From positions 1,302,001 through 1,366,000 of the forward strand of contig NZ_CP101989.1 of NCBI RefSeq assembly GCF_024508275.1: 64,000 nt of DNA, given 5' to 3'. Shown here one piece after another: positions 34,686 to 61,400 of the stretch. The notes beneath the pieces were generated by a model. It had not been told where the DNA came from. It saw only the letters and a list, made by a program, of their open reading frames with translations, and did not search any database. A program made the position numbers and the translations under genes. The DNA is from Cellulomonas wangsupingiae (GTDB lineage Bacteria > Actinomycetota > Actinomycetes > Actinomycetales > Cellulomonadaceae). Each line of letters opens with the position of its first letter. Positions within the stretch are counted from its first letter, which is position 1.

Positions 34686-35168
34686 CTGTCCTGTGGACGA
34701 CCGCCCACGTGCCCGCCCGTGATGCCCTAGCGTGACGCCCGAAACGGACGAACCCGACATCCGGGAGCGGGAGGTGACGGTGGACGGCGTGGCGATCCTC
34801 GAGCGCGAGGTCCGCGAGCTCATCCGGCGCCGCGGCGTCGACCCCGTGCGGGACCGCGCGGGCGTCGTGGCGCTCGTCCACGCCGCGATGGCGGACTACG
34901 ACGAGCGCTCGCTCATCGGGTCGGTGCCCGCGCTGGCCGACACTGCGGCCGCCCACAAGGCCGTCGTCGACGCCGTCGCCGGGCTCGGGCCCCTGCAGCG
35001 GTACCTCGACGACGAGGAGGTCGAGGAGATCTGGATCAACTCCCCGTCGCAGGTCTTCGTGGCGCGCCGCGGTGAGCCGGAGCTGACCACGACCATCCTG
35101 TCCGACGCGCAGGTGCGCGACCTCGTCGAGCAGATGCTCAAGGTCTCCGGGCGGCGGCTCGACCTGTC
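34686..35168 (+). repeat. Left direct repeat: promoter and 5' part of tadA
   Basis: This segment repeats at 40829-41325. The two begin with the same CTGTCCTGTGGACGA, drift apart in the upstream and N-terminal part (point changes and a 14-base length difference), and are identical over the last 104 bases (35065-35168 against 41222-41325). Homology ends abruptly after GACCTGTC. Confidence 0.85.
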
Positions 35169-35184
35169 AAGTACGTGCAACTGA
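34780..35184 (+). pseudogene. tadA: Truncated 5' copy of tadA (left flank of the island)
   Basis: The frame encodes the first ~130 residues of a TadA/CpaF-type ATPase (VDGVAILEREVRELIRRR onward to VSGRRLDLS) and then runs into foreign sequence, STCN and stop. The residues match the complete tadA at 40937 almost exactly, with mainly synonymous differences. It lacks Walker A and all catalytic parts, so it is a remnant. GTG 34780 is taken as start from the GGGAG six bases upstream. It was probably the original 5' end of the locus before the island inserted. Confidence 0.85.
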
Positions 35185-35458
35185 CACTATGAACCCTCTA
35201 GACATCATCCGGGCTGCTGTTTCAGCGCTCTCCAGGCCCCTTGATCACGCACGTACACAGCATCGGTCGACCCACAATCATCGTCGACCACACCGCCGCC
35301 CTGTATCCGCTCCGTCCGGTGGCCGTATCAGACACCCGGTCAGACCAACGGAACCTGTACGGATCACCGCTTCTAGTTGCTGATCAGGATCGGTGCCGTG
35401 CGTCCGCGCGGAACGAGTGCCGTACTACCCAGGCTGGCGATGACCGCGACCTCCGAGC

Positions 35459-36025
35459 TCAGACTCGACCGATGGCCGCCGTGAGCCTGGCCGTGTTCTC
35501 GACCGGGAGTATCCGGGGCGTGCTTCTCTCGCTCGGCGGGGGGCTGCTTCGGGTCCGAGCAACCGCGAGCCTGACGCCGGAGATGCCGAGCCAGTTGACG
35601 AGGGCGTCCTCGGAACCGGCGTGATCGAACTGACGCGACTCCTTCAATCCTGACGCACGCCCGATCGCGGCGAGATCGGCGCCGGTGCTCGTGGCGCTCG
35701 GCTGCCCCCCGGTACTGCCGTAGGAGCCGTTGTCCAGGACGAGGATGGACAGGCGCTTCGGGCCGTAGCGAGCGACGGTCGTCAGGGCTCCAAGGTTCAT
35801 GAGGCAGCCGCCGTCGCCTTCGACGGCGACCACCTGTTTGCCGGTGCTCAAAGCCATGCCTAGCGCCACCGGAATCACCATGCCCATGGACCCGAGCAGA
35901 TACAGATTGCGAGGGTCGTCGGCTACTCGCCGGAGTTCCTCGGTGGCGTCGCCCAGCTGGCAGATGATCACCGCTTCTGGGTGCGCCCGACGGAGGGCCT
36001 CGAGGAGCCTCGCGCGATCAAGCAT
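35459..36025 (-). CDS. ComE/Ppd-like ThDP-dependent decarboxylase, catalytic (beta) half
   Basis: This 188-residue protein is the thiamin-diphosphate-binding half of a sulfopyruvate/phosphonopyruvate decarboxylase-type enzyme. The cofactor motif runs from VVAVEGDGGCLMNLGALTT to LVLDNGSYGSTGGQ (GDG at 70-72, N at 99), preceded by LYLLGSMGMVIPVALGMAL, as in ComE. It is the last gene of the island operon and overlaps the alpha-half gene by eight bases. No phosphoenolpyruvate mutase or sulfolactate gene is near, so the 3-substituted pyruvate it would decarboxylate is unknown. Confidence 0.8.
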   Translation of the reverse strand: MLDRARLLEALRRAHPEAVIICQLGDATEELRRVADDPRNLYLLGSMGMVIPVALGMALSTGKQVVAVEGDGGCLMNLGALTTVARYGPKRLSILVLDNGSYGSTGGQPSATSTGADLAAIGRASGLKESRQFDHAGSEDALVNWLGISGVRLAVARTRSSPPPSERSTPRILPVENTARLTAAIGRV

Positions 36026-36479
36026 CGACGACCTCTCTGTCGATCAGGACGGCGTGCGGCCGTCGATCTCTAGCGGCGGATCGCGCTGCGTCAGGCAGGA
36101 GCATCCACAGGTCCGCTGGGTGCTTGGCGGTCGAGTGAGGAACGTCAAGGCTGTCGAGGAGCGCTCGAGTGGCGCGTCCTACCGGTCGTTGCGCGGGGTT
36201 CGAGTCGGCTTCGTCACCACGGACAGAGACGAGGAGGCACACCCCGATCTGGTAGGCAACCGCCAATGACCCGAGGGTGTTGAGCGCGCTGGCCAGCCCG
36301 GAGTTCTGCATCGCCACCAGAGGTGCCCCGCCGCCGAGCACGAGTCCGCATCCGATGGCGATCGCTTCCTCTTCGCGGGCTGCGTGCACAGTGTCGACCG
36401 GGGCCTTCAGCACGTCCAGCGCCGCGAGCAACGAGCACGGCACAAGGACGTGGTGGCTGAAGGGCCAGCGTTCAGACAT
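36018..36479 (-). CDS. ComD/Ppd-like ThDP-dependent decarboxylase, alpha half
   Basis: This 153-residue protein matches the N-terminal (pyrimidine-binding) half of the same decarboxylase group. The activating Glu lies in AAREEEAIAIGCGLVLGG (about 33-50), followed by LVAMQNSGLASALNTLGSL, the QNSG motif shared by sulfopyruvate and phosphonopyruvate decarboxylases, and the RGDE loop. With the downstream gene it makes a two-subunit enzyme of ComDE layout. It overlaps both neighbours by eight bases, which implies tight stoichiometric coupling. Confidence 0.8.
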   Translation of the reverse strand: MSERWPFSHHVLVPCSLLAALDVLKAPVDTVHAAREEEAIAIGCGLVLGGGAPLVAMQNSGLASALNTLGSLAVAYQIGVCLLVSVRGDEADSNPAQRPVGRATRALLDSLDVPHSTAKHPADLWMLLPDAARSAARDRRPHAVLIDREVVDA

Positions 36480-37581
36480 CGCACTCCAGCCCGAGCTGCG
36501 TCGCCAGCGATCCCACGGCCTCTACCGCCTGCTGTCGGCACCAGCTCGCGTCCCGAGAGACCTCAGGGAACACCTGCTGCAGCGTCAGCGAATAACCTTG
36601 CCGGCTGATGTCAGCTCGCGCGACGAGGTCGTCGTCGACGAGAACGGCTAGCGCATAGGCGCCGTACTTCCTGCGTGCTGCGGGCTTGTACGCCTCGAAC
36701 ACGTAGTCGAACCCGAACAGGCGGCGGGTCCGTGCCCGGTCCCTGATGAGGTTGTCGAAGGGGCCGATCAGCCGGGGTCGAGGCTGCGAGGTGCTCGTCG
36801 TCACGGGTTCGGTCACCCAGGCCGCTTCTGGCCAGCCCTCGATTGCGGCTTGCAGGTGCCCACGCCCACGGAGCGTGGCAGCGACCTGATCGGCACGCAG
36901 GTGGTAGTACGTCGCCACCTCTTCGGTCGTGGCGACACCGAGCGCTGCTAGAGCACGTTCCGCCAGTGCCGTGAGGCACTCGTCAGGCGTGAGGGTCTGG
37001 TTCAGCTGCTCGGTCGGAACGGCGCGCTCGACGAGGTTCAGGACGCGCTCGCCCCGCCGGCGACTCGTGGACGCGAGCTCGCCTCGCCACACCATGTGCT
37101 CGGCTGCGCGCTTGGTGGCTGACCATCCCCAACCACCGCCAGTGCGGTCGTCTCGTTGCAGTTCGCGGATGGTCAACCCGTGCTCGCTGTCAGCGATCAG
37201 CTCGCGGACCCGCTGCCGCATTTCTGGTGGTGGCGTGTCCGCGCGGGCACGCGCGCGAGAACGGTGGATCTCGAACAGGGGCCAGTCGCCTATCGGCATG
37301 GCGCAGGCTGCGTGCGTGTAGGTCTCGAAGGTTGCGGCGCGCTCATCGGCCGGCCACAGATCTCGATCGACGCGGCTGATGTCCTGGACCGTCATTCGTG
37401 CTGCGCAGGTCAGCAGATGAGCGCGTGCGACGCGAGTGAGCGGGTCCATCTGCAGCAAGCCGATGCGCTGCAAGATCGGCAAGGTGCTCGACTCCTCTTC
37501 ACGCAGACCTTGCGCGGCCACCGCGAACCCGCGGGCCCGCGCGACCGGTATCCCGATGTCAGGTCGCATGCGACGCCGCAA
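36472..37581 (-). CDS. HTH_42 winged-helix DNA glycosylase (YcaQ/AlkZ-like, QMD motif)
   Basis: This 369-residue protein belongs to the winged-helix HTH_42 family that includes AlkZ (azinomycin resistance) and E. coli YcaQ, which remove bulky alkylated bases and unhook interstrand crosslinks. Near the N-terminus is RIGLLQMDPLTRVARAHLL with Q44-M45-D46, matching the Q-x-D catalytic pair of the YcaQ branch rather than the QxQ of AlkZ. Further blocks are TFETYTHAACAMPIGDWP, GWGWSATKRAAEHMVWRGEL, ALAALGVATTEEVATYYHL, and RLIGPFDNLIRDRARTRRLFGFDYVFEAYKPAARRKYG, all family-like. It overlaps the exporter gene by 23 bases. It is most likely a repair or self-resistance enzyme. Confidence 0.82.
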   Translation of the reverse strand: MRRRMRPDIGIPVARARGFAVAAQGLREEESSTLPILQRIGLLQMDPLTRVARAHLLTCAARMTVQDISRVDRDLWPADERAATFETYTHAACAMPIGDWPLFEIHRSRARARADTPPPEMRQRVRELIADSEHGLTIRELQRDDRTGGGWGWSATKRAAEHMVWRGELASTSRRRGERVLNLVERAVPTEQLNQTLTPDECLTALAERALAALGVATTEEVATYYHLRADQVAATLRGRGHLQAAIEGWPEAAWVTEPVTTSTSQPRPRLIGPFDNLIRDRARTRRLFGFDYVFEAYKPAARRKYGAYALAVLVDDDLVARADISRQGYSLTLQQVFPEVSRDASWCRQQAVEAVGSLATQLGLECDV

Positions 37582-38845
37582 TTTCCTCGGTACGCGGTGT
37601 GACCGAGCGGGCGGTGCGCAGCAACCAGCAGCCGATGAGCACCGTTCCGACTGCCAGAGCGGACTGTGCGACAGCGAGCGTCTGAGCGCCCGGGGCGACG
37701 GCGGTCAGCAACCCGGCTGCGGTGATCCCGATGGTGTAGCCGACGTTGTTGCCCACGGGAACCCAGGTATTCGCCTCGTGTCGCACTTCTTCGGGCAGGC
37801 CGTCGTCGATCATGAGGTAGCTGTTGATGTACAGGGGCGTCACCGCGAGTCCGCTCACCGCCAGGACAGCGCCGAGTGCCCAGGCGCTCGGCCACGTCAT
37901 GACAGCGGTCGTGAGCGGGGCCGCGAACGCCAGGAGCAGCACGGCGTGGCGCGTGCTCAGCGACGCTCGCCACCTGACCAGCGCGTACCCGAACCCTCCG
38001 ACCACGCCCCCCAGGCTGATCGCGGCCATGAGGTATCCGGTGCGATCAAGCCCACCGGCGGCCGCAGTCGCAACCTGCGGAACCAGGAGGCCGAGCCACC
38101 CCAAGCTCGCGCCCATCATGACCAGCGGCAGGACGATCTGCCGCAGCGACGGTTGAGCGATCGGTCCGACGACCGTGCGTAGGCGCGTGCGCCAGGTGCG
38201 CGGCATCCCCTGGGCTACGCGTGGCCTCGCCGCCGGTGGACGTCGCAGGGCGGTACGGAAGTGGCTCGATGCGAAGACGAGCAGGCTGCCGACGACCGCT
38301 GCGGCGGTCACGGCCCACAGACCCTGCTGCGGCGACATCGCGAGCAGCAACGTCGATGCCAACACCGGTCCGAGCAGGAATCCCGCCTCCTCGAGGAGCG
38401 AGTCGACGCTGTGAAGCAGCTTGACCTGGCGTTCAGTCCGCCCGATCTCGGCCCACGCAGACCTGATAACTGCGTCCACCGCCGCCGGCGTCACTGCTGC
38501 GAGTGCGCACGCGACGTAGATCAACGCGAGCGGCGCTCGGTCGTCACCCACGATCGCGACGAATATCACGAGTGTCACTGCTGCCACGATCGTCTGCGGC
38601 AGCACGACGCGAGACCGTCCGAACCGGTCGATGAGCCGCGCACGGAGCGGTGTGCTGAATGTCGCGACTGCGACCCGGACTGCTTGGACGCTCGCTGCGA
38701 TCACGAGCCCCCGGGCGTCGGCGACGGCGATGAGGAGAGCCACAGGGAACGCCGCACCTGCCACGCGACGCACAACGATGATCGCGAACAACCACAACGC
38801 TCGTGGATCGCCAAGAACCGCTCGCTCTGCACCGGGCAGTCTCAT
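37559..38845 (-). CDS. MFS transporter, probable exporter
   Basis: This 428-residue protein has about twelve hydrophobic segments in two halves, with the loop 2-3 signature ARLIDRFGRSRVVLPQT near residue 70-86. The second half begins near WRTRLRTVVGPIAQPSLRQIVLPLVMMG and includes LMAAISLGGVVGGFGYALVRW. Between the helices are the short loops of efflux-type MFS members. It overlaps the unknown gene upstream by four bases and the glycosylase gene downstream by 23. Coupling to a DNA repair enzyme suggests export of a DNA-damaging compound, but no substrate is evident. Confidence 0.82.
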   Translation of the reverse strand: MRLPGAERAVLGDPRALWLFAIIVVRRVAGAAFPVALLIAVADARGLVIAASVQAVRVAVATFSTPLRARLIDRFGRSRVVLPQTIVAAVTLVIFVAIVGDDRAPLALIYVACALAAVTPAAVDAVIRSAWAEIGRTERQVKLLHSVDSLLEEAGFLLGPVLASTLLLAMSPQQGLWAVTAAAVVGSLLVFASSHFRTALRRPPAARPRVAQGMPRTWRTRLRTVVGPIAQPSLRQIVLPLVMMGASLGWLGLLVPQVATAAAGGLDRTGYLMAAISLGGVVGGFGYALVRWRASLSTRHAVLLLAFAAPLTTAVMTWPSAWALGAVLAVSGLAVTPLYINSYLMIDDGLPEEVRHEANTWVPVGNNVGYTIGITAAGLLTAVAPGAQTLAVAQSALAVGTVLIGCWLLRTARSVTPRTEEIAASHAT

Positions 38846-39552
38846 CGCGCTGTTCCTTCAACGTCCGAGGGCTCATCCAGTTCGAGGCGCGCCTGGATCG
38901 ACGACCGGTGCAGCAGCACGAGCTTGGCGATCGGGTCGCCGCGCTGGATGGTGACGTCACCGGTAGGACGAAATGCCAGCGAGATGCCACCGGCGCCGAT
39001 GCTACGTCGTAGCTGTCGCGCTGTGAGAACGCCCGGCGGGACTTCGATCCCGGGTATGCCTATCGACTGCGTCAGCAGGAGGTACTCCTCCGGGATATTG
39101 GCTGAGAAGCCGAGGCGCCACTCCACGGAGCCGTCTCCGTTCGGAAGGAACATTGCTTCCCAGGCGCCCGAGGTGCCCCGGAACTGGTGCAGACGAAGCC
39201 ACGGAGAGCGCGGTGCGGTGATGAAGCCACCGCTGCGGCTCCAGAATTCGGACGTCCCGGCCAGCCGGGCGATCTCGTTCGGGTCGGCGCCGGCGTCCAC
39301 CTGGAGGTCGTGTACGGGCGAGACGGTGACGGTCAACGGGGACTTGATGACCCAGCCGAGCTCTTGACCTAGCACCCAGGGAGGGCGCGCTTCCGGGTAC
39401 CGCACCCGTCTGACGTACCGGAAGTGCTGGGCGAGCAGCGTGGCTTCGTCGTGCGCTGCCGTCCGGTCCGTGTGGTGCTTCGAGAGCTTGAGGTTAGGAC
39501 CCGTCGGTGCGGCTCGGGATGACGCTGCATCCATTTTCGTGCAGGTCGACAC
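38842..39552 (-). CDS. Unknown protein, first gene of the island operon
   Basis: This 236-residue soluble protein is not confidently recognised. It contains LGWVIKSPLTVTVSPVHDLQ, TAPRSPWLRLHQFRGTSGAW, GFSANIPEEYLLLTQS and a late strand-turn TIQRGDPIAKLVLLHR (about 203-218). The PEEYLLL ... RGDPIAKL pattern recalls all-beta proteins such as the dUTPase-like fold or the uncharacterised DUF6065 group, but I cannot decide. Start may be GTG 39552 or ATG 39534. It leads a chain of five overlapping genes, so its product should act with the exporter, glycosylase and decarboxylase. Confidence 0.6.
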   Translation of the reverse strand: MSTCTKMDAASSRAAPTGPNLKLSKHHTDRTAAHDEATLLAQHFRYVRRVRYPEARPPWVLGQELGWVIKSPLTVTVSPVHDLQVDAGADPNEIARLAGTSEFWSRSGGFITAPRSPWLRLHQFRGTSGAWEAMFLPNGDGSVEWRLGFSANIPEEYLLLTQSIGIPGIEVPPGVLTARQLRRSIGAGGISLAFRPTGDVTIQRGDPIAKLVLLHRSSIQARLELDEPSDVEGTAR

Positions 39553-39590
39553 GGCGCTAGGATCTGTCGGTCACCGAGCGACGCTCCCGA

Positions 39591-39596
39591 TACGGT
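39591..39596 (+). promoter_or_regulatory. -10 box (TACGGT) for the orphan gene at 39603
   Basis: TACGGT ends six bases before GTG 39603 and implies a leaderless transcript diverging from the island operon. Confidence 0.45.
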
Positions 39597-39602
39597 TCGT
39601 GG

Positions 39603-40319
39603 GTGGCGGATGAAATGGGTGCGCGAGAGGTGGTCACGGGTGCGCTTGTTGTCGCTGCCGATGCAGTGCTCGTCGCGCGCGGAATGCCACCTATCGGTGG
39701 GGCCGCGGTTCCGGCGCTGCAGCTCTTCGGCGCCAAGGCGAGCCAGGCCGCCCGCGAGCGGCTGGAAGTGTTCGCGCGAGCGCTTGAGCTGGCTGCGGGT
39801 GCGCCCGTCGACACCGTCGTCGAGCGGCTTGCCGAGCAGGACGACGGGCCTACGCTCTTGTACGCGGCCCTCGACGCTCTGATCACAGGGCCCGGTCGTG
39901 ATCGTGCCGCGCTCCTGGGCGCGGTTCTCGGGCGCCGAGTTGCCGACGAGGCCGCCGATGAGCAGGACGCCCTTGACCTCGTGCTCTCGGTGGCTCTCGG
40001 ACTTGAACCCGCCCATCTCTCTGTGCTCGCTCATCTCGACGACGCACGTGGACAGACCCGCGTAGATCCGGGCGACGCCTGGGTTGCGATCGGACAGCTG
40101 GAACAGGACCTCCCGGGCCTCCGACGGGTGCATCGAGGCGCCCTAGCCGCTCTCGTCGCCAACGGCACCGTGGCAGCGCGAGACGGCAGGGACGGCCTCT
40201 CCTTCGGGGATTCGGGCGTCACGAACGAGTGGTCAGTAACAGAGCTCGGCGCGACCGTCGTCGGCTTCTTGAAGACACATGGGCGCGAGTCGAGCGGCGC
40301 AGATGGAGATGGGCTGTAG
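39603..40319 (+). CDS. Unknown island protein divergent from the operon
   Basis: This 238-residue protein is Ala/Leu-rich with predicted helices in the first two thirds (AVPALQLFGAKASQAARERLEVFARALELAAG; LVLSVALGLEPAHLSVLAHLDD). The C-terminal part (GALAALVANGTVAARDGRDGLSF ... WSVTELGATVVGFLKTHG) resembles a winged-helix ending with a TELG motif, as found at the end of MarR/ArsR-like or defence-associated scaffold proteins. It may therefore be a regulator of the divergent operon. I do not recognise a family. Confidence 0.6.
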   Translation: MADEMGAREVVTGALVVAADAVLVARGMPPIGGAAVPALQLFGAKASQAARERLEVFARALELAAGAPVDTVVERLAEQDDGPTLLYAALDALITGPGRDRAALLGAVLGRRVADEAADEQDALDLVLSVALGLEPAHLSVLAHLDDARGQTRVDPGDAWVAIGQLEQDLPGLRRVHRGALAALVANGTVAARDGRDGLSFGDSGVTNEWSVTELGATVVGFLKTHGRESSGADGDGL

Positions 40320-40828
40320 CAAGGGTCCGCGGCCCTGACGCGATCGGACTGCATCACCAGGCGGCGCGACAACTCCCCGCCCTCAGGAGGCAAGGAGGGT
40401 GGCGACGACGGATGCGTCGAGGCCGAAGTGAAGTGAGGCTATTGGGACCGGAGCGGCAGCCGGGGCGCGGACTGCTGTGTTTGCGGTCGGCCCAGGTCAG
40501 CCTCCCGTCGCCGAGCGCGCAAATGCCGGTGTCGCCCACGACATCATGGACGGCGTCGTCGAGTTGTTCGCTTGAGGTGGATCCGCAGCCCTCGGTCGGC
40601 CTCGGGATCCGGAGTAGTGCCGATCGGCCTGCACGTCGACGAACTCCGACATGATCGGGTCGCCGGACTTGGGTAGGACTTGAGGGTTCTACTTGGCCCT
40701 CCCTGCCTGCGCCGAACACCTGTGCCAGGCGCTCGCGGACCCTGAAGTCGGGTCGAGCGGCCGTGCTCGCAACGTCCAGGCGTCGGACCTCGACGGCTCC
40801 GTTTCATGCGGCCCATCACAGGTCCGAT
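40320..40828. other. Island right end without a recognisable gene
   Basis: About 510 bases follow the orphan gene before the right tadA repeat. Short frames exist on both strands. One minus-strand stretch near 40500-40600 (EQLDDAVHDVVGDTGICALGD) looks like eroded coding sequence, but no family, integrase or RNA gene could be identified. Confidence 0.4.
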
Positions 40829-41325
40829 CTGTCCTGTGGACGAATCCTCACGCACGCAGCGCCGATGCCCTACCGTGACTCGCGAAACGGATGAACCAGA
40901 CATCGGCCGTTCTTGGGGCGCGGGAGCGAGGTGGGCGTGGACGGCGTGGCGATCCTCGAGAGCGAGGTCCGCGAGCTCATCCGGCGCCGCGGCGTCGACC
41001 CCGTGCGGGACCGTGCGGGCGTCGTGGCGCTCGTCCACGCCGCGATGGCGGACTACGACGAGCGCTCGCTCATCGGGTCGGTGCCTGCGCTGGCCGACAC
41101 GGCGGCCGCCCACAAGGCCGTCGTCGACGCCGTCGCCGGGCTCGGTCCCCTGCAGCGGTACCTCGACGACGACGAGGTCGAGGAGATCTGGATCAACTCG
41201 CCCTCCCAGGTCTTCGTCGCCCGCCGCGGTGAGCCGGAGCTGACCACGACCATCCTGTCCGACGCGCAGGTGCGCGACCTCGTCGAGCAGATGCTCAAGG
41301 TCTCCGGGCGGCGGCTCGACCTGTC
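40829..41325 (+). repeat. Right direct repeat: promoter and 5' part of tadA
   Basis: Partner of the repeat at 34686-35168; see that entry. This copy supplies the promoter region (CCCTACCGTGAC near 40870) and N-terminal codons of the intact tadA, so gene function is kept despite the insertion. Confidence 0.85.
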
Positions 41326-42160
41326 GAGCCCGTTCGTCGACGCGTCGCTGCCCGGCGGTGAGCGGCTGCACGCCGTGATCCCCGACGTCACGCGGCGGCA
41401 CTGGTCCGTCAACATCCGCAAGTACGTCGTGCGCGCGACGAGTCTCGAGGACATGGTCGCCCTGGGCTCGCTCACGGCCCAGGCCGCCGCGTTCCTCCAG
41501 GCCGCCGTCCGGGTCGGGCTGAACGTGCTCGTCTCGGGCGCCACGCAGGCGGGCAAGACGACGATGCTCAACGCGCTGACCGGTGCCGTGCCCCCGCGTG
41601 AGCGTGTCATCAGCTGCGAGGAGGTCTTCGAGCTGCGGCCCGCCGTGCGGGACTGGGTGGCGATGCAGACGCGACAGCCGAACCTCGAGGGCACGGGGGA
41701 GATCACGCTGCGGCGGCTGGTCAAGGAGGCCCTGCGCATGCGGCCCGACCGGCTGCTCGTCGGCGAGGTGCGCGAGGCGGAGGCGCTCGACCTGCTCATC
41801 GCGCTCAACAGCGGCGTGCCCGCCATGTGCACCATCCACGCCAGCTCGGCGCGCGAGGCGCTGACCAAGCTGTGCACGCTGCCGCTGCTCGCGGGCGCGA
41901 ACATCTCGGACCGGTTCGTCGTGCCCACCGTGGCGGCGTCGGTCGATCTGGTCGTCCACCTCGAGATCGACGCGCGCGGACGACGTCGCACCCGTGAGGT
42001 CGTGGCGGTGCCCGGACGCGTCGAGGCGGGCGTCGTGGAGACGGCGGACCTGTTCACGAGCCGCGGCGACGTCCTGGTGCGAGGTGACGGCTTCCCCCCG
42101 CACCCGGAGCGCTTCGCGCGTGCGGGCGTCGACGTCGTCGCGATGCTGCGGCGGGGCTGA
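40937..42160 (+). CDS. tadA: TadA/CpaF-type secretion ATPase of the Tad pilus
   Basis: This 407-residue hexameric ATPase drives Flp pilus assembly. It has the N-terminal coiled/helical part, then PSQVFVARRGEPELTTT, Walker A SGATQAGKTTMLNAL (about 195-208), the Asp box ISCEEVFELRP, Walker B MRPDRLLVGEVRE and the His box AMCTIHASSAREALTKL. The start is taken at GTG 40937 because GAGG lies five bases upstream and the same codon is conserved in the truncated copy; GTG 40931 or TTG 40913 are alternatives. It is the first gene of the operon with tadB and tadC. Its 5' third is the repeat copy, probably brought by the island. Confidence 0.92.
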   Translation: MDGVAILESEVRELIRRRGVDPVRDRAGVVALVHAAMADYDERSLIGSVPALADTAAAHKAVVDAVAGLGPLQRYLDDDEVEEIWINSPSQVFVARRGEPELTTTILSDAQVRDLVEQMLKVSGRRLDLSSPFVDASLPGGERLHAVIPDVTRRHWSVNIRKYVVRATSLEDMVALGSLTAQAAAFLQAAVRVGLNVLVSGATQAGKTTMLNALTGAVPPRERVISCEEVFELRPAVRDWVAMQTRQPNLEGTGEITLRRLVKEALRMRPDRLLVGEVREAEALDLLIALNSGVPAMCTIHASSAREALTKLCTLPLLAGANISDRFVVPTVAASVDLVVHLEIDARGRRRTREVVAVPGRVEAGVVETADLFTSRGDVLVRGDGFPPHPERFARAGVDVVAMLRRG

Positions 42161-61030: not shown

Positions 61031-61395
61031 GGGGGTGATCGGTTTCGACGGTGATCGTCGAGCCAGGTGAAGCGGGTCGAGGATGCACGGTTATCTCGTA
61101 AACGCTCCGTGCAACTCATAGGTGCCGATTCCAAGCGCACCGACTTCGCCCTCGCCGCCTGAGCGAGGCTTCGAAGTCCGTCGGCCTAGACACGCTCTCG
61201 GTCTAGTTCCCGGCGTCATCTAGAGAGCCACTGCTGTCCGTCCTCGTCGGTGGGGCGGGCGGGACTCTTAGCCGACTGAGCCCGTCCACGTCTTGTCCGC
61301 GTGATCGTGGGGGCTGAGAAAATCTACTGCGGACTGCACCCGGAGAAGCCCTGGTCCCACGTCATCGGACGCGGGTTCGATTCCCGCCACCTCCA
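61031..61395 (+). ncRNA. ssrA: Transfer-messenger RNA (tmRNA)
   Basis: The RNA starts GGGGGTGATCGGTTTCGACG and ends GGGTTCGATTCCCGCCACC plus TCC-A. The ends pair as an acceptor stem (GGGGGTG with CACCTCC) and the T-arm sequence GGGTTCGATTCCC is canonical. The tag frame at 61124-61162 encodes ADSKRTDFALAA followed by TGA, a typical actinobacterial tag ending in ALAA for proteolysis. The terminal CCA is not encoded (the next bases are CGT) and must be added by nucleotidyltransferase. SmpB is encoded at 53881. It acts in rescuing stalled ribosomes. Confidence 0.95.
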
Positions 61396-61400
61396 CGTCA

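Follow-up and report, generated by a model that had tools for sequence, protein, structure and literature searches.

A seemingly decayed copy of a mobile cassette linking a QxD DNA glycosylase to an exporter in Cellulomonas wangsupingiae

An exporter-linked glycosylase of the QxD branch

Two described groups of HTH_42 family DNA glycosylases come closest to the locus reported here: the AlkX/YcaQ-like crosslink glycosylases (YQLs), which carry a QxD motif, and the AlkZ-like enzymes (AZLs; AlkZ, HedH4, TxnU), which carry (Q/H)xQ and belong to larger clusters. According to PMC9040887 and PMC13303869, YQLs are absent from biosynthetic gene clusters (BGCs) and have near-invariant neighbours in Streptomyces. 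We analysed 64,000 nucleotides of the C. wangsupingiae genome (the window; located on one 4.12-Mb contig of this genome, G000), in which a QxD glycosylase gene (GLY) lies in an overlapping operon with genes for an exporter of the major facilitator superfamily (MFS), a protein of unrecognised function (U) and the two subunits of a split thiamine diphosphate (ThDP) decarboxylase. Comparison with related loci suggests, at what we consider an even chance, that the operon is a decayed copy of a mobile cassette composed of a YncE-like beta-propeller (YNC), U, GLY and MFS, which would make, modify or trap a genotoxin and protect against it. The five genes present in the window are the following.

38842..39552, minus strand: U, protein of unrecognised function, taken from the list of open reading frames (ORFs); beta-clip (dUTPase) fold predicted for relatives
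37559..38845, minus strand: MFS exporter, PF07690 (MFS_1), E 1.5e-14
36472..37581, minus strand: GLY, HTH_42/AlkZ-like DNA glycosylase with QMD motif, PF06224, E 3.8e-42
36018..36479, minus strand: ThDP decarboxylase alpha subunit, accessory; TIGR03845 below cut-off, nearest PDB chain 9iz3_A (RhiEF)
35459..36025, minus strand: ThDP decarboxylase beta subunit, accessory, with a GDG...N stretch; TIGR03846 below cut-off, nearest PDB chain 9iz3_B (RhiEF)

An earlier note on this DNA, written from the letters alone, had described these ORFs as overlapping by 4, 23, 8 and 8 bases, and recomputation from the coordinates returned the same values. The lower GC content that it had reported is also borne out, with 66.6-68.2% in four 2-kb windows (35001-40000) versus 70.4-77.4% in windows clear of the surrounding island.

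GLY matches PF06224 with 145.5 bits (cut-off 25.9). Its residues Q44-M45-D46, previously proposed to fit the YcaQ branch, are indeed present, an alignment of 17 sequences shows no variation at Q44 and D46, and Q-x-D recurs in all 26 cassette glycosylases; with QMD, GLY does not have the AZL motif (Q/H)xQ. The sole solved structure matched at E 1 is 9zd6 (E 2.9e-31), the AlkX-DNA structure of T. fusca (PMC13303869). The cassette glycosylases group with the YcaQ/AlkX-type rows in each of three trees and are separated from the AZL-type rows (100 UFBoot); the split between YQLs and AZLs is supported at 100/100 in the tree with nine AZL-side rows and at 100/99 in the two trees with three. Judged by motif and phylogeny, GLY is a member of the QxD (AlkX/YcaQ, YQL) branch. 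The cassette differs from published YQLs, which are described as lying outside clusters (same papers), by the overlapping operon that GLY shares with an exporter gene. It resembles the AZLs in having transporter genes near the glycosylase, as in the hed cluster (PMC9040887), and in the self-resistance logic proposed, whereas it differs from them in the QxD motif and in that no scaffold enzyme was recognised. Exporter-linked QxD glycosylases on Streptomyces linear plasmids, on a Priestia plasmid and on a conjugative Burkholderia plasmid offer a testable qualification of the statement that YQLs are not in biosynthetic clusters; they qualify rather than contradict it, because the status of the cassette as a BGC is unproven.

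In the widest tree the cassette glycosylases form two clades, one of 12 rows including the window (99/96) and one of 12 rows including two loci at which only GLY and MFS are present (100/100; see below). A third clade holds 22 glycosylases from genomes, which have no MFS neighbour, together with the plasmid locus L094 (98/99); 18 of these glycosylases belong to a single genus (f12 g17), taken as Streptomyces. All three clades share one larger group (90/89), so that the exporter-linked glycosylases are close kin of ordinary Streptomyces-type YQLs. With the inner order of this group unsettled, the linkage between GLY and exporter may have arisen once or more than once. An earlier tree had suggested that every glycosylase of the cassette clade is exporter-linked. 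This generalisation was rejected, since 22 of 28 sampled genome glycosylases belong to the same larger clade and none has an MFS gene in its 1.5-kb flanks. Sixteen further PF06224 loci (L036-L051) yielded four QID glycosylases with the cassette GLY profile, the weakest at E 6.7e-71; at 1e-5 the profile matched nothing else there.

Two other plasmid-borne QxD glycosylases were seen in different company. At L094 (Streptomyces sp. NBC_00111 plasmid) the gene adjoins a cluster with ectA, ectB and ectoine-synthase-like genes, a P450, an adenylating enzyme and a carrier protein; we do not rely on this glycosylase as a cluster member, the tree placing it with the Streptomyces-type enzymes. At L101 (Sphingomonas sp. 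R1 plasmid) the gene directly follows an annotated Pycsar effector gene.

A recurring unit of YNC, U, GLY and MFS

To our comparison, which used profiles seeded on the cassette genes, 31 loci contributed: the window, L035 from Cellulomonas sp. C5510 (genome G063), six plasmid regions and 23 loci from a contig scan of genomes with U. The plasmid search with U returned 18 records, 17 from Streptomyces and one from Priestia megaterium. All six plasmid regions opened showed the same gene order, i.e. a propeller annotated as YncE/lactonase-like, U, an MFS transporter and a YcaQ-family glycosylase. Five of these regions are from Streptomyces and have a TIGR02466 protein ahead of the propeller, with PF13759 in the two that were scanned. 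U has both GLY and MFS nearby in 26 of the 31 loci (the window, L035, 6/6 plasmid regions and 18/23 genome loci), and YNC is present in 26 of 31 as well. A 2-oxoglutarate (2OG)-Fe oxygenase, its histidines and arginine kept in 16/16, occurs in 16 loci and VOC-profile matches in 13, but the split ThDP decarboxylase pair is confined to three (window, L035 and Kocuria salsicia L023). The order of the genes varies between U-MFS-GLY and U-GLY-MFS. The earlier note had treated the five window genes as one linked unit. This holds for U, exporter and glycosylase, whose linkage is real, conserved and mobile; the five-gene set as such was rejected as the conserved unit, because the ThDP pair is accessory and the propeller, absent here, belongs to the usual set of YNC, U, GLY and MFS. 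This recurring four-gene unit includes two uncharacterised partners, one of them with a predicted dUTPase fold; no description of the unit was found in the open-licence literature searched.

Linkage is tight. GLY lies beside U on all 18 U-bearing plasmids: at a distance of 1.32-1.50 kb and on the same strand on the 17 from Streptomyces, and on the same strand with MFS in between on the Priestia plasmid. U itself is rare, being found in 2 of 81 genomes of the genus and 2 of 396 Actinomycetota genomes, own genome included each time; the other Actinomycetota genome, G468, is the same case as L021 and hence no independent instance. Chance linkage of U, GLY and MFS is implausible given this rarity. 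As a control, the cassette MFS family was present in 2 of 11 plasmid regions that have a related glycosylase but lack U, and, with flanks of up to 1.5 kb considered, at a single one of 28 other glycosylase loci from Actinomycetota, where it lies upstream on the opposite strand. Distances between the proteins of 24 loci, compared pairwise for U, YNC, GLY and MFS, correlate with r 0.88-0.95, and none of 2000 permutations reached as high a value for any of the six pairs.

These data also bear on the idea that the operon is an ordinary one, serving catabolism or housekeeping, with the glycosylase as a mere bystander. It would fit with the U relatives of a Phycisphaerales metagenome-assembled genome (L024) and of Cohnella (L029), which stand without GLY, MFS and YNC, and with another QxD glycosylase that the own genome already has (L052, motif QVD). 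The overlapping genes, the rarity, the plasmid carriage and the constant company of GLY and MFS speak against it, and we regard it as quite improbable.

Several Streptomyces loci (L004, L006, L008, L009 and similar ones) carry one more YncE-like propeller upstream of the oxygenase; in L006 it is short. A short HTH/ArsR-like gene family recurs there in 11 loci, and still further out there is a VOC gene in divergent orientation.

YNC matches PF21783 and PF10282 and in this respect resembles YncE/YVTN beta-propellers; it differs in its linkage to U, GLY and MFS, and the own genome has no match to it. U is harder to place. The window copy has no Pfam match at E 0.1. Its closest relative by identity, P0001 (encoded at L035, thus in the same genus), is intact and confidently predicted to adopt a dUTPase (beta-clip) fold; alignment by VIA-align covered only the candidates proposed by Foldseek. 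Among 35 U members, one matches Pfam dUTPase (E 0.016) and five match DUF6065 (PF19541) weakly at E up to 1 (best 0.032), none of the DUF6065 matches being confident. In a weak profile alignment (67 columns, probability 30%) a stretch like dUTPase motif IV is aligned. U therefore resembles dUTPase/DUF6065 proteins in predicted fold and through the weak DUF6065 matches, but differs in having no match at curated level. Could U clean the nucleotide pool, hydrolysing alkylated or otherwise modified nucleotides prior to incorporation, so that cleaner, glycosylase and exporter form three layers of defence? We consider this clearly unlikely, since the alignment just described is weak and has other residues in place of the motif III aspartate, and Pfam dUTPase is matched by a single member.

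The ThDP pair has its nearest relatives in heteromeric decarboxylases of the RhiEF/ComDE type. It shares with them the two small subunits, the ThDP motif (GDG at residue 70 of the beta subunit, within GDG...N) and the best scores by profile and solved structure, which is 9iz3 for both subunits, i.e. RhiEF (PMC12141560). The alpha subunit has no Pfam match at E 0.1, and the beta subunit matches TPP_enzyme_C at E 8.1e-18. The nearest NCBIfam models are those of the sulfopyruvate decarboxylase subunits, TIGR03845 for alpha (106.4 bits, cut-off 147.95) and TIGR03846 for beta (129.5 bits, cut-off 221.5). The pair differs from RhiEF/ComDE in these scores below both curated cut-offs, in being optional within the cassette and in lacking supply genes, as a search of G000 and G063 at E 0.001 gave no match to either phosphoenolpyruvate (PEP) mutase or ComA. 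In the genome of Kocuria a single match to PEP mutase (128 bits, cut-off 320) and none to ComA was seen; PEP mutase matches also occurred in 6 of 14 control genomes, none above the cut-off. Phosphonopyruvate and sulfopyruvate, suggested earlier as ComDE-type substrates, were rejected as unlikely on the grounds of the missing supply genes, and some other 2-oxo acid would be more likely.

Decay, persistence and possible function

The window copy is not intact. DNA homology to L035 extends from 35454 to 39481 (87%) and ends inside U, so that the first codons of the window gene are foreign; the start of this ORF, as given in the earlier note, is by this alignment not the ancestral one. In an alignment with 126 relatives, C52 is replaced by R, with C in all 123 relatives that have a letter there. 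Within the foreign stretch, where the alignment is arbitrary, L stands at the P19 column (P in 121/121) and P at the W15 column (W in 110/121). YNC is missing from the own genome, and in the sister genome G063 it matches only residues 3-253 (1-260 in a second comparison) of a 347-residue relative. Since YNC is absent and U lacks its conserved N-terminus and constant cysteine, the cassette copy looks decayed and U is probably defective; what is left is chiefly the half that looks protective, MFS and GLY, plus the decarboxylase. A working self-resistance and tailoring cassette, as proposed earlier for this locus, is therefore doubtful here. The ratio of nonsynonymous to synonymous substitutions between window and L035 is 0.20-0.31 in the five genes (NG86; U over 212 shared codons), well below 1, which indicates selection for much of their divergence and does not imply present selection on U.

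Other loci are likewise incomplete. Another decaying copy is L028 of Saccharothrix obliqua, where GLY has an open frame but U and MFS are fragmented and a YNC was not found. On two plasmids the gene directly after GLY encodes an MFS protein of the family seen in the cassette: L096 of Streptomyces sp. NBC_01334 (E 8e-95) and L097 of Burkholderia glumae BGR1, plasmid bglu_3p (E 4.6e-77). The latter plasmid is typed as conjugative, and an IS6 transposase gene precedes the pair while an ISNCY transposase gene follows it. Neither U nor YNC was matched in the 15-kb regions of L096 and L097. Both glycosylases nest among those of the cassettes, L097 as a long branch. Such pairs would look like loss of the other half with protection retained, and suggest a resistance pair that moves without the rest of the cassette; alternatively, YNC and U may have been gained by the other loci. 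The earlier proposal would have been refuted by a lack of co-occurrence elsewhere. U, MFS and GLY do co-occur, so that no refutation arises on this count; GLY and MFS also occur with other neighbours, namely at these two loci.

Exporter and alkyl-adduct glycosylase together point to a DNA-reactive small molecule. In the cassette as we picture it, a small compound that alkylates DNA would be formed, modified or held by YNC and U together with whichever optional protein is present (2OG-Fe oxygenase, VOC protein or the split ThDP decarboxylase), and the MFS protein would pump this compound out. Compound reaching the DNA would give rise to N7-alkyl or crosslink adducts, GLY would remove these by hydrolysing the N-glycosidic bond, and the abasic site left behind would pass to host base excision repair. 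The substrate of YNC and U would thus be the genotoxin against which GLY and MFS protect. With YNC gone and U damaged, mainly MFS, GLY and the decarboxylase would remain to act in the own genome. The four-gene unit could lead to a new genotoxin by resistance-guided mining.

Several points weigh against this reading. Around the loci read, neither was a scaffold-making enzyme recognised nor a conserved precursor peptide found. The roles of U and YNC are putative. U occurs without GLY and MFS in 5 of the 23 genome loci (L011, L024, L029, L030, L031), of which L011 holds YNC and U only and L030 is cut at U by the contig end; the U family hence has a role outside the cassette. As close kin of the cassette glycosylases, at 22 of 28 sampled genome loci, lack an MFS neighbour, the glycosylase type alone implies neither genotoxin nor exporter. 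Shared host history can contribute to the distance correlations, the glycosylases of Priestia and L097 are long branches whose place is unsure, and dN/dS cannot tell whether GLY and MFS stayed selected after the decay of U.

Under one alternative, the cassette produces no compound at all: an environmental genotoxin made by neighbours would be bound or detoxified by YNC and U, helped by VOC protein and 2OG oxygenase, MFS would export it and GLY would repair the remaining damage. Lack of a recognised scaffold enzyme and of a precursor peptide agrees with such pure resistance, as do carriage on plasmids and an island, the GLY-MFS pair alone between transposase genes on a conjugative plasmid, and the VOC and HTH genes beside many Streptomyces copies. 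2OG oxygenases and ThDP decarboxylases, however, are more usual in synthesis and tailoring, which counts against it. So does the close co-divergence of YNC and U with GLY and MFS, though this is expected under either reading. We hold pure resistance to be possible, if on balance doubtful. A more specific proposal, which we put forward tentatively and likewise with doubt, is that synthesis falls to YNC and U, assisted by 2OG oxygenase or ThDP decarboxylase, in a new type of very small biosynthetic cluster that makes a DNA-alkylating metabolite with no polyketide synthase, nonribosomal peptide synthetase or precursor peptide, the QxD glycosylase and the MFS pump providing self-resistance; this Cellulomonas and the Burkholderia plasmid would have kept the resistance half only. 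A ribosomally synthesized and post-translationally modified peptide was tried as the product and rejected: the conserved small ORFs (18-90 aa) are mostly alternate frames of known genes, judged by their positions, and one 33-aa family upstream of the oxygenase is restricted to three closely related loci.

The cassette is mobile, being carried on plasmids and on an island. Mobility, and a glycosylase together with a dUTPase-fold protein that could suit an attack on phage DNA or nucleotides, would also be compatible with an anti-phage defence operon. PADLOC, however, gave nothing at E 0.01 for U, GLY, MFS, YNC and the ThDP proteins and matched the oxygenase to 2OG models only, a scan of viral contigs with U gave 26 pattern matches of which none was confirmed, and the MFS exporter would be left unexplained, which makes this a very remote prospect.

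The island between two cpaF copies

In the window the operon lies on an island flanked by two copies of cpaF/tadA.

35172..40828, no strand: lower-GC island (about 5.7 kb) with a cpaF copy on either side, delimited by GC and by repeat and homology boundaries
34686..35171, plus strand: left cpaF/tadA copy, truncated duplicate of the 5' part, in direct repeat with the right copy
40913..42160, plus strand: right cpaF/tadA ATPase gene, complete, PF00437, E 7.4e-38
39603..40319, plus strand: 238-aa ORF on the island, divergent from U, outside the conserved cassette

Between the two cpaF copies, identity is 94% over 300 coding nt and 78% over 76 nt upstream; matches to relatives are at 82-88%. Their coding parts are thus closer to each other than to relatives, in keeping with a duplication or recombination that happened fairly recently. 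For the left copy, homology stops at 35171 in comparison with G045 and G010, and at 35168 in comparison with G029. No recombinase was detected among the six island ORFs scanned with Pfam, 40320-40828 being outside the scan. The 238-aa ORF, whose first base sits 51 bases beyond that of U, had no match in Pfam, NCBIfam or PADLOC at the limits used.

Among 19 genomes, cpaF/tadA is interrupted or partly duplicated in three: near codon 140-148 in the window, near codon 164 in G029 by an insert of about 33 kb with an overlap of about 11 bp (L085/L086), and near codon 306 in G010 by an insert of about 11 kb (L087). The gene may be an insertion hotspot, for which no paper was evident in the open-licence literature searched. 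One end of the G010 insert carries a 499-aa ORF (L087:12835-14334), which by eye, from its motif, resembles a large serine recombinase. In G081 a 63%-identical cpaF piece was seen about 3.5 kb from the complete copy. Elsewhere in the window, a transfer-messenger RNA gene is located at 61031-61396, with the tag ADSKRTDFALAA.

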